64,000 bases of DNA from Oscillospiraceae bacterium (GTDB taxonomy: Bacteria; Bacillota; Clostridia; Oscillospirales; Ruminococcaceae): assembly GCA_021201135.1 (NCBI GenBank), contig JAJQGT010000006.1:1-64000 (forward strand), read 5' to 3'. Position 1 is the first letter of the stretch. Each line of letters starts with the position of its first letter. This document shows, piece by piece, positions 1,823-22,981 of this stretch. The notes beneath the pieces are model-generated. The model was not told where the DNA came from. It saw nothing but the letters and a program-made list of their open reading frames with translations, and searched no databases. The translations under genes and the position numbers were made by a program.

Positions 1823-2938
1823 TCACTCAACGTCCAGATTACTAATCGTATTATCCTCAAGATTAATCTCACAGAACCCACCATTGTCATAGGTGTCAAA
1901 CATCAAAGTCTCGTCATCAATACAGTTGATATAACCGACAGTAGGGGAGAGGTCGCCCAAATCAAGTCTTGATTCGTCGCCGGTTTCAAGGTCGACAATC
2001 CAGATGCCCGGGGTCAGGGACATTTCGCCGTCCTCGGCGTACTTATTCGACCAATAGGCAAGCTCGGTGCAGCTTTCGTTGACCGTCGGGACATCATACC
2101 ACACGACCACGTCCCACTTGCCGGTGAGAGCTTCGTAGTATTCGTCATAGGTGAAGCCGTAGACTTCGTCCGGCACGAACAGCTCGGTAAACATTAAGAC
2201 GATATTCTCAGGGGAAATATAGTAGACGTAATCCTCGAGCGTATTGACCGTTTCGCCTGTATTGGGAGCTATCATCATGCCGCCGTCCGAGGTTGGCATA
2301 ATGGTGGATATAAACGTATTCTCATATGGCATGGGGAAGTCGACCGCAACGATTTCTCCGGTTGCGACCCTGATGACATACATCCTCATTTCGCCGGAAG
2401 AGAGCTGAGAATAGCCCTCCGCAAAGAAGATGAAGTGATCTGTGACAACATAGCCGACCGAAAGCCCGGAGCCTTTGGCAATCACCGAGATTTCAGTGTC
2501 GGTCGCCTCGCAGACATATGCCGTCTTGTCATTTCCTTCCCTGAAAGCGATATAGTTCCCGACACGCTCGACATCGTAAATCGTATCCGGGTCGACAATC
2601 TGATCGAGCCAGGAAACATCCGACAGGTCGACATCTTCTTCATAGTCCTTCTCCGTGAGGCTATCTTCCGCACGTTCCTCAAACCATAGCGAAATGTAAG
2701 CGTCCACAACTTTGACATCCTTCGGCAGTATCAACGACTGACTCTTGATGTTCTCGTAGTACCAATCAACGACTTCAAGCTCGTCCGAATCGTCCTCCGT
2801 AGGCGAGGTGGTCGCCCTCGTGACCTTTTCACTTGAAGAGCTCACAGTCGTGACACTGGAATTATCATCCACCCGTTCAGTTACCCCGCAAGACACTAAA
2901 AGCATAAGCGCCAAAGCCATCGCAATAATCTTTTTCAT
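1823..2938 (-). CDS. Putative lipoprotein of unknown function
   Basis: A 371-residue protein with a lipoprotein signal: basic start MKK, hydrophobic core, then LLVSC, so Cys18 would be lipidated. A Ser/Thr/Asp-rich linker of about 50 residues follows, then an acidic globular domain with repeated Tyr-rich strand segments (for example around TAYVCEATDTEISVI and LETGDESRLDLGD) that resemble beta-propeller blades. I do not recognise the family. The start at 2938 is preferred over an upstream ATG in the same frame because GGAAGGAG lies just before it and because the predicted signal peptide begins there; the longer reading would run through the promoter. It stands alone, with a promoter and a 21-bp direct-repeat operator that is also found before the lipoprotein gene at 19594. 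Confidence 0.7.
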   Translation of the reverse strand: MKKIIAMALALMLLVSCGVTERVDDNSSVTTVSSSSEKVTRATTSPTEDDSDELEVVDWYYENIKSQSLILPKDVKVVDAYISLWFEERAEDSLTEKDYEEDVDLSDVSWLDQIVDPDTIYDVERVGNYIAFREGNDKTAYVCEATDTEISVIAKGSGLSVGYVVTDHFIFFAEGYSQLSSGEMRMYVIRVATGEIVAVDFPMPYENTFISTIMPTSDGGMMIAPNTGETVNTLEDYVYYISPENIVLMFTELFVPDEVYGFTYDEYYEALTGKWDVVVWYDVPTVNESCTELAYWSNKYAEDGEMSLTPGIWIVDLETGDESRLDLGDLSPTVGYINCIDDETLMFDTYDNGGFCEINLEDNTISNLDVE

Positions 2939-2969: not shown

Positions 2970-2998
2970 AGTATACCATATTGAAACATTAAGAGCAA
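2970..2998 (-). promoter_or_regulatory. Promoter of the 1823-2938 lipoprotein gene
   Basis: Minus strand: TTGCTC (2993-2998), 17 bases, TATACT (2970-2975), with a TG dinucleotide next to the -10. The -35 box is weak (three of six consensus positions), which fits a promoter needing an activator; a direct-repeat element lies 10 bases upstream of it. Confidence 0.6.
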
Positions 2999-3029
2999 TA
3001 TCTCAAAGATTAAGATTTGATTAAGATTT
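2988..3029. promoter_or_regulatory. Direct-repeat operator, ATTAAG half sites
   Basis: Read on the plus strand, ATTAAG occurs at 2988-2993, 3009-3014 and 3020-3025, spaced 21 and 11 bp, i.e. on one face of the helix. The 21-bp segment 3009-3029 is identical to 19501-19521. The spacing ATTAAG-N5-ATTAAG matches the style of OmpR/PhoB-family sites and resembles the published CiaR consensus of streptococci (TTTAAG-N5-TTTAAG). The paired half sites lie just upstream of the -35 box of the lipoprotein gene. Which regulator binds here is inference. Confidence 0.5.
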
Positions 3030-3058
3030 AAGCCGACGCTCATCACGTCGGCTTTTCT

Positions 3059-3469
3059 TTAATCTTCATTCCTCATCAGATCCTGAATCGTAAACCCATC
3101 CAGATAATCCGAAATCATCTTGTCAAGCCCTTGCCACATGGGATATGACCGGCACTCGTAGCGGCGCTCGCACTGCTCGACGGACTTGTCAACGCAGGAG
3201 ACCGGGGCAAGTTCGCCTTCGGTGAGCCTCAAGATTTCGCCGACGGTGCATTTGTCGGGGGAGCGGCTCAGCTTGTAGCCGCCGCCTTTGCCACGTTGAC
3301 CTTCGAGAACTCCTCCCGAAACAAGGCTCTTGACGATGGCTTCGAGGTATTTCTCCGAGAGATGCTGACCGTCGGCAATCTCCTGAAGCGGGATATATTC
3401 TGAAGTCTGCCTCTCGGCTATATCAACAACAACTCTCAGGGCGTATCTGCCCTTTGATGAGATAAACAT
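3059..3469 (-). CDS. Rrf2-family transcriptional regulator (IscR-like)
   Basis: A 136-residue winged-helix regulator of the Rrf2 family, recognised from the MFISSKGRYALRVVVDIA start and the wing region GQRGKGGGYKLSRSP. It carries three cysteines, Cys92, Cys100 and Cys106, nearly the spacing of the [2Fe-2S]-ligating cysteines of IscR, so it probably senses Fe-S status. The ATG at 3469 is chosen over an in-frame GTG at 3478 because GGAG lies eight bases before it. It is divergent from sufCBDSU, with both promoters in the roughly 200-bp gap, the usual arrangement for a local regulator of that operon; direct control of suf is inferred from this. Confidence 0.88.
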   Translation of the reverse strand: MFISSKGRYALRVVVDIAERQTSEYIPLQEIADGQHLSEKYLEAIVKSLVSGGVLEGQRGKGGGYKLSRSPDKCTVGEILRLTEGELAPVSCVDKSVEQCERRYECRSYPMWQGLDKMISDYLDGFTIQDLMRNED

Positions 3470-3492
3470 TGCATTCACTCCAATCTGACTTA

Positions 3493-3626: not shown

Positions 3627-3678
3627 TTTAAATGTGTAAACTGCCGTTATGGCGATAAATAAAACTACGGAGAGTGAA

Positions 3679-19429: not shown

Positions 19430-19480
19430 CGTTACAAGCGAATTGTAACGACCCACCGCATTCATGCGGTGGGTCTTTTT
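19430..19480 (+). terminator. Tandem-hairpin terminator after the amidohydrolase gene
   Basis: A first hairpin CGTTACAA/TTGTAACG (19430-19450) is followed directly by ACCCACCGCA/TGCGGTGGGT (19451-19474) and CTTTTT. The second is a textbook intrinsic terminator. Confidence 0.88.
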
Positions 19481-19490
19481 ATGCCCAATT

Positions 19491-19527
19491 ATTAAGAACT
19501 ATTAAGATTTGATTAAGATTTCTTAAT
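19491..19527. promoter_or_regulatory. Direct-repeat operator, three ATTAAG half sites
   Basis: ATTAAG at 19491-19496, 19501-19506 and 19512-19517 (10- and 11-bp period), with an inverted CTTAAT at 19522-19527. Positions 19501-19521 are identical to 3009-3029. The element ends just before the -35 box of the lipoprotein/ABC operon, the normal place for an OmpR/PhoB-type activator. Resembles the CiaR site architecture; the regulator itself is not in this window. Confidence 0.55.
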
Positions 19528-19532
19528 ATTTA

Positions 19533-19560
19533 TTGACTTGCAGGAAATGCGAGGTGTAAA
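19533..19560 (+). promoter_or_regulatory. Promoter of the lipoprotein-ABC operon
   Basis: TTGACT (19533-19538), 16 bases, TGTAAA (19555-19560). The -10 is poor, consistent with dependence on the activator-like repeats immediately upstream. Confidence 0.45.
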
Positions 19561-19593
19561 CTTGACGTATCAAACCCGAAAGGAAACATGATT

Positions 19594-20217
19594 ATGAAAA
19601 GAATTTTTGCAATTATTCTCTCGCTCGTCCTTACAATTTCCCTCGTCGGTTGCGGCTCGGAGGATATGATGTACTCAGAAAGCAATGCAAGCTCCGATAG
19701 TTCGTACTCTATCCCATATTATGTGGCAGAAACCGACAGCGCCATCTATGTCGACTGCAATGTGAATTCCGTAAACGTTGAAGAGGGGAAGATAACCTCC
19801 GTCTCGGAGCTCGGCAAAATCAACGACTGGTATTCAGCACTTTCTGATGACGGAACAATTGCCGATGGCTATGTTTTTGTAACTGTTGGGGTCACGCTCA
19901 ATAGCCCCGAAACCATCGACTCCCTCAGCCTGTCCTGTTTCTGGCTCTGCTACGGAAAATCGAGCAAGAACTACGATTTCAAGGAGCCGAGCTACATCAG
20001 TGACTCAGCTGCTCCCGATGATGTGCACAACGCTATGACTGTAAACGTCACTGCAAACGAGGACAAAACCGTTACGATAGGCTATCTCATGGCGAAATCG
20101 GGGCTCGAAGACTCGAAATATATCGCTTTGGGTGCGGCATTCACCGACTTCGGCGATGATGGCAACTACACGAATCCGCTTATCAAGCTTGCCGACAGCC
20201 TGGAGGAGCTTTCATGA
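19594..20217 (+). CDS. Putative lipoprotein, first gene of an ABC operon
   Basis: 207 residues with a lipoprotein signal (MKRIFAIILS..., lipobox LVGC, Cys20), a Ser-rich linker and a beta-rich domain of about 150 residues in the style of DUF4352/telokin-like extracellular domains (TVGVTLNSPETIDSLSLSCFWL, MTVNVTANEDKTVTIGYL). Function unknown. The ATG at 19594 is nine bases after AAAGGA; an ATG two codons earlier is too close to that site. Its stop overlaps the next gene (ATGA), so it is coupled to the ABC-2 permeases and probably works with them at the cell surface. Confidence 0.72.
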   Translation: MKRIFAIILSLVLTISLVGCGSEDMMYSESNASSDSSYSIPYYVAETDSAIYVDCNVNSVNVEEGKITSVSELGKINDWYSALSDDGTIADGYVFVTVGVTLNSPETIDSLSLSCFWLCYGKSSKNYDFKEPSYISDSAAPDDVHNAMTVNVTANEDKTVTIGYLMAKSGLEDSKYIALGAAFTDFGDDGNYTNPLIKLADSLEELS

Positions 20218-21056
20218 AAGCGGCACTGAAATTAGAGCTTCGTAGGCTATTTTCATCAAAAGAGCTGTACATAGCTCTCGCCATAGGGCTTGCATTGGTC
20301 GTCTGGCTGTTTGTGCATGAGGTTTTGGAATCGGTGCGCTTTGCGGAAGAATATGCCCTCTATGGCGACAAGATTTCCGGCTATCTCCATTACCCGAAAA
20401 CGGTATTTAATTCCTCGATTGAGCTCGAATATGATGCCCTCCCGCCGATACTTCTTTATCTTCTATTCCCGATAATAGCGGCGTTTCCTTATGCGTCGAC
20501 CTATTGCAAGGACAAGAAAAGCGGCTATCTCAAGAACCTTTTAGTCAGAATTGACCGCAAAGATTGCTTCATGGCGAAGTACATAGTGTCATTCTTAAGT
20601 GGATTCTTCGTGAGTGGAGTGATTTTGCTGGCAAGTTTAGGACTTACCATGCTCGTCTTCCCGATGCTCATTCCCGAAGCAGTCACGCAGAACTATTATG
20701 TCCGGTCCGGCAATATGTGGGGAGAGCTCTTCTACACAATGCCGATGCTATACACTCTTCTATATATCATGATTGACATGCTCTGGTGCGGGTGTATGGC
20801 GAGCTTCGCATTGCTTTTAAGCACCTTCACCCGCTCGGCATTCTTAGCCGTCACCGGAAGCTTCATCGTTTTCGAAGTCTTGGATTATGTCCTCTCGCTC
20901 TTCTCGCTATCGCAGTTCAGTCCTATCACTTTTTTAAGACCGATTCAGACCTGCGATGGCATAAATTTATGGATTATCCTGACCGAATTCGTAGTCATCA
21001 TGGCGGCAAGCTTCATCGGATTTTACTTTTTGGAGCGCAAGAAAGATGTATTTTAA
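20214..21056 (+). CDS. ABC-2 type permease subunit 1
   Basis: 280-residue membrane protein with six predicted hydrophobic helices and a large first extracellular segment (about residues 40-85), the layout of ABC-2 family permeases used in bacteriocin self-protection or peptide/lipid export. No catalytic motifs. It overlaps the lipoprotein gene by 4 bases and the next permease gene by 11, so the three are made together. Confidence 0.8.
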   Translation: MKAALKLELRRLFSSKELYIALAIGLALVVWLFVHEVLESVRFAEEYALYGDKISGYLHYPKTVFNSSIELEYDALPPILLYLLFPIIAAFPYASTYCKDKKSGYLKNLLVRIDRKDCFMAKYIVSFLSGFFVSGVILLASLGLTMLVFPMLIPEAVTQNYYVRSGNMWGELFYTMPMLYTLLYIMIDMLWCGCMASFALLLSTFTRSAFLAVTGSFIVFEVLDYVLSLFSLSQFSPITFLRPIQTCDGINLWIILTEFVVIMAASFIGFYFLERKKDVF

Positions 21057-21831
21057 ATATGACCTGAAAGTCGGCTTCCTCAGAGATTTACCGAAGCTAC
21101 TTATACTCGTTGGCATAGTTTTGGTCGCAAATATCTCGCTGTTCAGATATGCCGAACTGTTTTCTCTTAATCTGGGAAGTCTCGATTATATCCTGTATCT
21201 CACAAAGTCCATAGCACCATTCCCGCAAAGCGGCGAGGAGTTCAGATTTCCCGTAGTTTGGTATCTCATACAGCTATATCCCATGTGGATGGTCGGCAGA
21301 TACCCGTTTTCTTCCGTCTACGACAACCACGGTGCAGGCGTCCTGATATACGGCGGCTCGAGGTCAAGATGGTATCTCTCAAAAGTAGTGTGGATAGCAT
21401 TGACGGTGCTTGCATATTATCTCACAATGATTATAACTTCGCTTGCATTCTGTTTGTTAGCAGGCGTCCCGATTTCGTGGGAGATTAATCTTCTTGAACT
21501 TACAGAAGAGTTTTCGAGCGTGGCGCTATTTCTCCCGATAGTAACATCATTCGTAACGGAAGTATTTCAGCTATTCCTGATGACACTTACCACACCCATA
21601 ATCAGCTTCTTCTTGGTAGCCGCCATCTCCGCGGCATCAACCTATGTAACAAGCCCGATTCTCTTTACAAACTGTTCCCAGCTTTTAAAGCTTTCGGCAT
21701 TTTCGGAGGACGGAATTGGAACCGGTGAAGGCTATTTAACCCTACTGATAGTATTTGCACTCAGCCTTGCGGCGGGACTTATAATTTTTAACCGGCGGGA
21801 CATTTTGAAAAGCCAGAGAGATGAGGAATAA
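21046..21831 (+). CDS. ABC-2 type permease subunit 2
   Basis: 261-residue membrane protein with about six hydrophobic helices, similar in plan to the preceding permease but of different sequence, so the transporter is likely a heterodimeric membrane part with one ATPase. It overlaps the upstream gene by 11 bases and ends two bases before the ATPase gene. Confidence 0.78.
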   Translation: MYFKYDLKVGFLRDLPKLLILVGIVLVANISLFRYAELFSLNLGSLDYILYLTKSIAPFPQSGEEFRFPVVWYLIQLYPMWMVGRYPFSSVYDNHGAGVLIYGGSRSRWYLSKVVWIALTVLAYYLTMIITSLAFCLLAGVPISWEINLLELTEEFSSVALFLPIVTSFVTEVFQLFLMTLTTPIISFFLVAAISAASTYVTSPILFTNCSQLLKLSAFSEDGIGTGEGYLTLLIVFALSLAAGLIIFNRRDILKSQRDEE

Positions 21832-21833
21832 AT

Positions 21834-22463
21834 ATGATTTTAGAACTACAAAACGTAACGAAAACAATAAAAGGCGTGACGGTCTTAGATAACATCAGCC
21901 TCACCATGCAGGGCGGCAAAGTCTACGGCTTCCAGGGCAAGAACGGAAGCGGCAAAACGATGCTCATGCGCCTTATCTGCGGACTCATCAAACCTACGAG
22001 CGGGCAGGTCATCATAAATGGCGAAACCTTGGGCAAAGACATCTCATTCCCAAGAAGTGTCGGAGTGTTGATTGAGAATCCGTCGTTTCTCCCAGAATGC
22101 ACAGCACTCAGAAATCTCAGGCTTTTAAGCGACCTGCGAGACCATCTTTCCGACAACGAGCTCAAAGCCGTTCTTTTCGACGTAGGTCTCGACCCGGAAG
22201 ATAAGCGTAAATACCGCAGTTTTTCACTTGGCATGAAGCAAAAGCTCGGCATAGCCGCCGCAGTCATGGGAATCCCCGAGCTCGTCATCTTAGATGAACC
22301 AATCAACGCCGTCGATGATGCCGGGGTAGGGAATATCCGCAAAATTCTCATGAGGCTCAAAGAGAGCGGTTCCCTTATCATCGTCGCCTGCCACGACAGG
22401 GAAGAGTTAGAACTCATCTCCGACGAAATCCTCAAAATCGACGCAGGGAGGATTGTCCCATGA
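21834..22463 (+). CDS. ABC transporter ATPase subunit
   Basis: 209-residue ABC ATPase, on the short side. Walker A GKNGSGKT is at 35-42, the signature is SLGMKQKLGIA (SLGMK in place of SGGQ, as in many ABC-2 ATPases of the drug/bacteriocin-resistance type), and Walker B LVILDEPINAVDD follows, with the switch histidine in VACHDRE. It drives the two permeases upstream. It ends with a 4-base overlap with the next gene; the usual C-terminal regulatory tail of these ATPases is absent. Confidence 0.9.
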   Translation: MILELQNVTKTIKGVTVLDNISLTMQGGKVYGFQGKNGSGKTMLMRLICGLIKPTSGQVIINGETLGKDISFPRSVGVLIENPSFLPECTALRNLRLLSDLRDHLSDNELKAVLFDVGLDPEDKRKYRSFSLGMKQKLGIAAAVMGIPELVILDEPINAVDDAGVGNIRKILMRLKESGSLIIVACHDREELELISDEILKIDAGRIVP

Positions 22464-22981
22464 AGCGAATTATAGCCATAATTGCCACACTTGCCATAGC
22501 CTTCACCATAAGGGTCGTCTATGTAAACGCCTTTGAATACCGCTTCACCGAGAAAGTCGTTTACTCCACCGGCGAGACCTTCACTCTTCACGACTTGGAG
22601 CTCACCTGCACCAACGACGGCATCTATTCTTCCGAAGAGCTCGCAAGGATTTACGGCGAAGAAGTCCTAAACTACTCCGACGAATCCGACCTGATTCTGA
22701 CCCTCGAAATCACCAACCTGACGGATGAGCCTCAGACCCTCGACCTCACCTCCTTCCGCATGCAGTATGCCTTCACCTCCGGCGGAGGCATTAACCCTTA
22801 TCTCTTCGGCTATCTGAATGATGGCATCGGCGGCTCTAAATGCACGATAGAATCCGGCAAAACGGTCACCGTCCTCCTCCCATACCCCTACGACTGGGAC
22901 ACCCTCGGCTCCGAGAAGCCCTACGACCTCGTCCTGTCCCTCTATCCCGAGAATGTGAGGGTGAGGGTAGTAGAGAAGTGA
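22460..22981 (+). CDS. Secreted or membrane-anchored protein of unknown family
   Basis: 173 residues. One N-terminal hydrophobic helix (IIAIIATLAIAFTIRVVYV), without a lipobox, is followed by an extracellular beta-rich domain (LTLEITNLTDEPQTLDLTSF..., GKTVTVLLPYPYD) that again resembles DUF4352-like Ig-fold domains, as does the lipoprotein opening this operon. It starts within the stop of the ATPase gene. The operon therefore has an extracytoplasmic beta-domain protein at each end of a three-gene transporter. Function unknown. Confidence 0.65.
   Translation: MKRIIAIIATLAIAFTIRVVYVNAFEYRFTEKVVYSTGETFTLHDLELTCTNDGIYSSEELARIYGEEVLNYSDESDLILTLEITNLTDEPQTLDLTSFRMQYAFTSGGGINPYLFGYLNDGIGGSKCTIESGKTVTVLLPYPYDWDTLGSEKPYDLVLSLYPENVRVRVVEK

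Follow-up and report, generated by a model that had tools for sequence, protein, structure and literature searches.

A direct-repeat operator of the OmpR-family type before cell-envelope genes of an Oscillospiraceae bacterium, with a VanR-like protein as candidate regulator

A 21-bp sequence present before two lipoprotein genes in a 64-kb stretch of Oscillospiraceae DNA (the whole stretch analysed, called here the window) probably serves a single two-component regulator of envelope genes as a binding site, of which the genome has at least five. Its repeats, their place at promoters and their retention in related genomes support a direct-repeat operator of the OmpR-family type that is shared by envelope genes, in other words a regulon. 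The best explanation, in which a fair degree of confidence seems justified, is that the 21-mer is an OmpR/PhoB-family operator of an envelope regulon with a VanR-like protein as its putative regulator. Among the response regulators of the genome, this VanR-like protein is the likeliest one on promoter and phylogenetic evidence. The string ATTAAGATTTGATTAAG was not found in the open-licence papers searched, and no description of the regulon was seen among the papers listed there.

Within the window, ATTAAGATTTGATTAAGATTT occurs identically at 3009-3029 and 19501-19521; it is the only 21-mer found twice in the 64 kb, and all four repeated 18-mers fall inside it. The preliminary description had reported these same 21 bases, with two ATTAAG half sites per copy at an 11-bp period, 10-11 bp upstream of a -35 box, before lipoprotein genes, and oriented oppositely with respect to the two genes. 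The letters of the window bear out all of this. The distance to the -35 box as read from the sequence is 10 bp at site 1 and 11 bp at site 2, and a lipobox is visible by eye in both first genes (LLVSC and SLVGC). The tandem hexamers with a period of about 11 bp, together with their position upstream of the promoters of a gene set and their conservation at orthologues, are what is expected of an OmpR/PhoB-family operator.

Site 1 (3009-3029, minus strand) reads AAATCTTAATCAAATCTTAAT in the direction of its gene and holds two CTTAAT half sites with the 11-bp period. A third CTTAAT at 2988-2993, also on the minus strand, overlaps the -35 box by one base, and the next half site is 21 bp off. Read on the forward strand it is a third ATTAAG, and this is the position 2988 from which the feature had originally been listed; its TTAAT is retained, by eye, in 5 of 6 aligned promoters. 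The -35 box TTGCTC (2993-2998, minus strand, assigned by eye) is separated by a 17-bp spacer from the -10 box TATACT (2970-2975, minus strand), which is identical in all six aligned promoters. Site 2 (19501-19521, plus strand) is the same operator reversed relative to its promoter, whose -35 box TTGACT (19533-19538) and -10 box TAAACT (19557-19562) lie on the plus strand with an 18-bp spacer. Two extra half sites accompany it on that strand: ATTAAG at 19491-19496, identical in 10/10 aligned promoters, and CTTAAT at 19522-19527, adjoining the -35 box and found in 10/10 with the last base changed in one (L153). A terminator-like hairpin is seen by eye closely 5' of both operators (3031-3056 and about 19449-19475). 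Near site 1, an Rrf2-family regulator gene (3059-3478) is divergent from an ABC ATPase gene at 3649 onwards, which looks SufC-like and is perhaps part of an Fe-S cluster assembly operon.

The operator is not confined to the window. In the whole genome (G000, 2.33 Mb), where the pattern read backwards served as control, the 21-mer is found with up to three mismatches at six places (0, 0, 0, 0, 1 and 3 mismatches) and the reversed pattern at none; an occurrence at random frequency across coding sequence, raised earlier as the outcome that would speak against an operator, is thus not what was found. Five of the copies carry at most one mismatch (reversed control 0), the three beyond the window being at C9:220982, C9:247264 and C9:472980. 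All five lie, by eye, 10-11 bp upstream of a -35 box, each before an envelope gene or operon. The loose motif WTTAAG-N5-WTTAAG, with one mismatch, is present three times in the window alone against 1.25 expected, and 17 of 100 shuffles reach three; that count is insignificant, and the support comes from the genome count. Similarly, CTTAAT-N5-CTTAAT with one mismatch gives 13 matches in the genome against 8 in the control, and the weaker genomic matches are therefore regarded as largely background. Among eight further weaker-match loci in G000, four (L093, L094, L095 and L098) are inside open frames, three (L091, L097 and L099) show by eye no -10-like hexamer at the canonical offsets, and the C31 site (L092) has such a hexamer at offset 36. 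This sixth, weaker site (G000:C31:120046-120066; L010, L092) stands by eye before a NifX/NifB-like gene, with small lipoprotein-like genes on its other side, and similar sites are present in apparently the same region of G251, G254 and G255.

The common theme of the genes behind these sites looks to be the cell envelope. Lipoprotein gene 1 (1823-2938, minus strand, 371 aa) belongs to no Pfam family at E 0.001, and its AlphaFold model is rich in beta strands and of low confidence (mean pLDDT 48). Lipoprotein gene 2 (19588-20217, plus strand, 209 aa) is the first gene of a putative operon, the remainder of which (20214-22981, plus strand) encodes three proteins without a Pfam family and an ABC ATPase (21834-22463) with a lantibiotic-protection ATPase as its best NCBIfam model, at 172.5 bits against a cut-off of 309.75. 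As a whole, this lipoprotein and ABC transporter operon (19588-22981) resembles lantibiotic self-protection systems. The three other copies precede a MacB/FtsX-type ABC operon, a set made up of an ABC ATPase, a secreted-looking protein and a permease of MacB type, and paired genes for C39-like peptidases, so that two of the five sites stand before lipoprotein genes, two before MacB-type ABC operons and one before a C39 peptidase gene. In other genomes of the genus, the targets include a 175-aa protein without a Pfam family, family-2 glycosyltransferases, a DUF218 protein, a DUF1287 protein, a putative esterase, a D-Ala-D-Ala carboxypeptidase (PF00768) and an L021-type regulator gene. Ten target proteins were scanned, and six have a family over its cut-off. 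The regulon may have a role under envelope stress.

The sites are conserved well beyond one strain. A 17-base core with at most two mismatches gives 110 sites in 30 of the 31 genomes of the genus, and the reversed control gives none in all 31. For the 104 sites outside G000, 100 stretches covered 102, leaving out G254:C26:116243 and G270:C39:12595 (in L079). Ten of the 102, all with two mismatches, were flagged as located inside a longer open frame (cut-offs of 150 and 120 aa); at least one of these (L127) nonetheless has canonical spacing. When the promoters of the five own sites were aligned with their counterparts (6, 10, 8, 12 and 10 sequences, selected for having the site), block identity was 0.91-1.00 against 0.40-0.72 upstream, and CTTAA-N6-CTTAA was retained in 46/46. 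Since an alignment selected by site is biased, orthologues were also taken by protein alone, and the core was then present in 6/6 promoters of full-length lipoprotein 1 orthologues and in 10/11 of lipoprotein 2; the exception, G259, has a site about 3 kb off that precedes a different open frame. The conservation upstream of orthologues that the preliminary description expected of a functional repeat is thus observed at both genes. No site was found before seven partial lipoprotein 1 homologues, the seven examined of a larger set. Outside the genus, the exact 21-mer with up to two mismatches is present in 5 of 243 family genomes (reversed control 2). Among these matches L018 led to a regulator gene, L015 and L017 look coding, and L014 and L016 stand before genes.

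The opposite orientation of the two repeats, which had been noted as needing an explanation, is a regular feature of the promoters. Orientation is constant within each promoter set, direct at sites 1, 3 and 5 and reversed at sites 2 and 4. The distance from a direct CTTAAT to the -10 is 33/34 bp, and from a reversed ATTAAG 38 bp. Of the 87 distinct sites whose TTAA cores are intact, a -10-like hexamer is found only at the direct offset in 46, only at the reversed offset in 15, at both in one and at neither in 25; a second peak, of 11 counts at offset 39, is made up in 11/11 cases of sites with a further hexamer at 33/34. The 5-bp difference between the two orientations corresponds to half a turn of the helix. 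The TTAA cores lie off-centre in the 21-bp block, and as a result the block itself holds its position to within 1 bp while the cores shift by half a turn. For Salmonella PhoP, the part of the study cited here describes direct boxes as working when they are an integral number of helical turns from the -10, and reversed boxes when that number is half-integral (PMC3335776). By analogy, a half-turn rule is a sufficient and plausible explanation of the opposite orientations.

The candidate regulator was reached from the L018 match. In that other genus, a relative of the 21-mer precedes the gene of a response regulator; G000:C9:90525-91223 is its likely orthologue in the present genome, which has eight OmpR-type DNA-binding domain matches. 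The orthologue is about 87 kb away and outside the window. The candidate adjoins a VanS-like kinase of 795 aa. Its best match is VanR, at 240.5 bits and hence far below the NCBIfam cut-off of 350, and the kinase likewise has the VanS model as its best match, also far below cut-off. Orthologues of the candidate at E 1e-60 are present in 29/31 genomes of the genus; one of the genomes with the regulator, G263, has no site.

The promoter of the candidate itself carries the repeats in many genomes. A TTAA pair at 11 bp is present in 14 of 29 genus promoters, against a mean of 1.6 when the same number of TTAA is placed randomly, and in 13 of 19 readable promoters of orthologues from other genera, against 0.6. 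The genus promoters are not independent, eleven being near-identical; these eleven, of the own species group, have AAATCTTAAT at the canonical place without the 11-bp pair, and their other TTAA cores are 20 and 22/23 bp away. As for the other genera, 60 genomes matched the candidate at E 1e-70, the best 27 were taken and eight were unreadable (L200, L211, L212, L215, L216, L217, L219 and L220); the L207 promoter fell in a neighbouring gene yet is counted among the 19. With a looser -10 rule, the offset of 33 or 34 bp from CTTAA to a -10-like hexamer that marks the targets recurs in 22/29 genus promoters and 12/19 of the other genera, and a further CTTAA at 11 bp in 23/29 and 7/19, respectively. 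The 11-bp pair was seen in 0/25 promoters of a control regulator (L022-type; 28 of 29 loci given, three unreadable). Among the matches listed from named records, relatives with 47-64% identity have the pair in 7/24 promoters and those with 36-49% in only 5/51, and the bearers include some records named Oscillospiraceae, Lachnospiraceae, Erysipelotrichaceae and Lactimicrobium. Some promoters of orthologous regulators also hold TCTTAAGAAAT, which has a partial likeness to the VanR box.

It is unlikely, although the reading deserves real weight, that the operator is bound by some other OmpR-family regulator (for example L020 or L024) and that the VanR-like gene is merely one of the targets. In G261 and G268 (96% and 97% complete), no close orthologue of the candidate was found, the best match having 36% identity, and these genomes nonetheless hold six and five sites (L274-L283); at least two of these, L274 and L280, have the canonical 10 bp to the -35 and precede a target family that is shared with other species. 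Either the regulator gene is missing from the two assemblies, or another regulator reads the same box, and orthologues of L020, L021, L022 and L024 (62-84% identity) are present in both. Regulator genes can indeed be targets, as the L021 gene is itself preceded by full sites in G259 and G044 and, in G000, by a half site at the canonical distance. Against this, the VanR-like gene retains its promoter repeats in other genera (the 13 of 19 readable promoters above), and so do some of its relatives in named records among the matches listed, which is the pattern expected of autoregulation; further, L021 was not found in site-rich genomes, and the L022-type promoters were without the pair in all 25. 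The promoters of L020 and L024 were viewed in G000 only, and these two keep some likelihood as binders. L021, called BceR-like here from its features and an adjacent permease gene, has PhoB as its best NCBIfam model, below cut-off. As the sole regulator L021 is disfavoured: at E 1e-60 it was not found in 9/31 genomes, including G251, G252 and G258 (100% complete, with 6, 3 and 5 sites), and its promoters have the 11-bp pair in just 2 of the 21 that were readable among 22 loci.

A CiaR-like regulator of an envelope regulon had been proposed originally; the envelope regulon and the OmpR-family pattern are supported, and CiaR itself is disfavoured by the spacing to the -10. Regulation of the 21-mer by a CiaR-like protein is now considered quite improbable, even though the hexamer and gap of NTTAAG-N5-TTTAAG are close to it and the recognition helix of one response regulator (L026) is by eye CiaR-like, NVVWVYISYLRKKL against VVEVYVSKVRKKL. 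The -10 lies 33/34 or 38 bp from the repeat instead of 10, and by eye a different site with CiaR spacing, TTTAAG-N5-CTTAAG-N10-TATACT, is found just downstream of the kinase gene adjacent to L026 (region of G000:C9:608615), which suggests that this CiaR-like regulator has sites of its own. An A+T-rich promoter element, either an UP element or curved DNA with no protein-specific operator, could account for an A+T-rich, helically phased block at about -46 to -66, and is very improbable given that CTTAA-N6-CTTAA is kept in 46/46 aligned (site-selected) promoters, that near-exact copies stand before few, functionally related genes and that no match was found for the reversed pattern, which has equal composition. 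There is hardly any case for a small repeat that is mobile or has lately spread. The 21 bp are identical in four copies, and about 13 more bases, with one mismatch, are common to sites 1 and 3; elsewhere, however, similarity stops near the block edges, the distance to the promoter is fixed, the orientation is constant per gene and the sites are common to 6 to 12 species.

Under the preferred explanation of a VanR-like regulator, the 21-mer would be a high-affinity operator on which monomers of the response regulator sit head to tail, one on each 11-bp repeat. The phosphorylated protein would bind its own promoter and those of its targets at about -46 to -66 and may assist RNA polymerase where the -35 box is weak or moderate. 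The transporters, lipoproteins and wall enzymes of the regulon would then be switched on under envelope stress. Both the binding and an activating rather than repressing effect are presumed here from the sequence. A broader proposal is more tentative, its chances being put somewhat below even. It holds that an undescribed VanRS-like system governs a broad envelope-defence regulon across a large, mostly uncultured group of Clostridia, through a PmrA-like box used in either orientation by a strict half-turn rule; the regulon (exporters, lipoproteins, wall peptidases, carboxypeptidase and glycosyltransferase) would vary between species while the autoregulatory site persists. For bacteria that have been little studied genetically, the analysis provides an operator, a regulon and a candidate regulator that can be put to the test; it also hints at roles of VanRS-like systems besides glycopeptide resistance, and offers a natural promoter set for studying a tandem-repeat activator in both orientations.

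The box is described here as a tandem-repeat operator of the OmpR family, with its candidate regulator named, because the rules of RR_1586 and PmrA fit it and those of CiaR and VanR fail. The streptococcal CiaR box has a similar hexamer and 5-bp gap and differs in its position relative to the -10; in the csRNA promoters covered by the cited portion of that work, the last TTTAAG is 10 bp from the -10, and only two have another base for the first T of the second repeat, A in one and C in the other (PMC3091779). Here the second repeat is ATTAAG, so the sequence departs from NTTAAG-N5-TTTAAG, and the 33/34 or 38 bp to the -10 replace the 10 bp of CiaR. The VanR/VanS pair is the best NCBIfam match of the regulator and kinase, and the sites lie upstream of the -35 as in the excerpt consulted, according to which VanR and VanRB bind their own promoters (PMC4405338). 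The candidate differs in scoring below cut-off, and the box published there, (T/C)CGTANGAAA(T/A)T, is by eye not matched by the 21-mer (PMC4405338). The Salmonella PhoP box is likewise used in both orientations under the rule of integral and half-integral turns, and differs in its hexamer and, as far as the cited section goes, in standing at several distances (PMC3335776).

The half site fits two other systems better than CiaR. In the sources as excerpted, the PmrA/BasR box is YTTAAK-N5-YTTAAK, bound head to tail, and PmrA acts on envelope genes (PMC10927774, PMC3973317); CTTAAT-N5-CTTAAT fits this box letter by letter. The candidate regulator is itself not PmrA, since it scores 126.3 bits against the PmrA model, below the cut-off of 330 (L026 scores 163.9). 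For RR_1586 of C. difficile, the cited part of the report gives the consensus DRTTAAGNWWWDRTTAAGNWWW (PMC6222199), which 3008-3029 and 19500-19521 of the window match by eye at every position. Compared by operator consensus and description, RR_1586 shares with the present system the OmpR family, the tandem 11-bp repeats, predicted ABC transporter targets and binding upstream of its own operon, and differs in a predicted regulon of ion and phosphate transport (PMC6222199).
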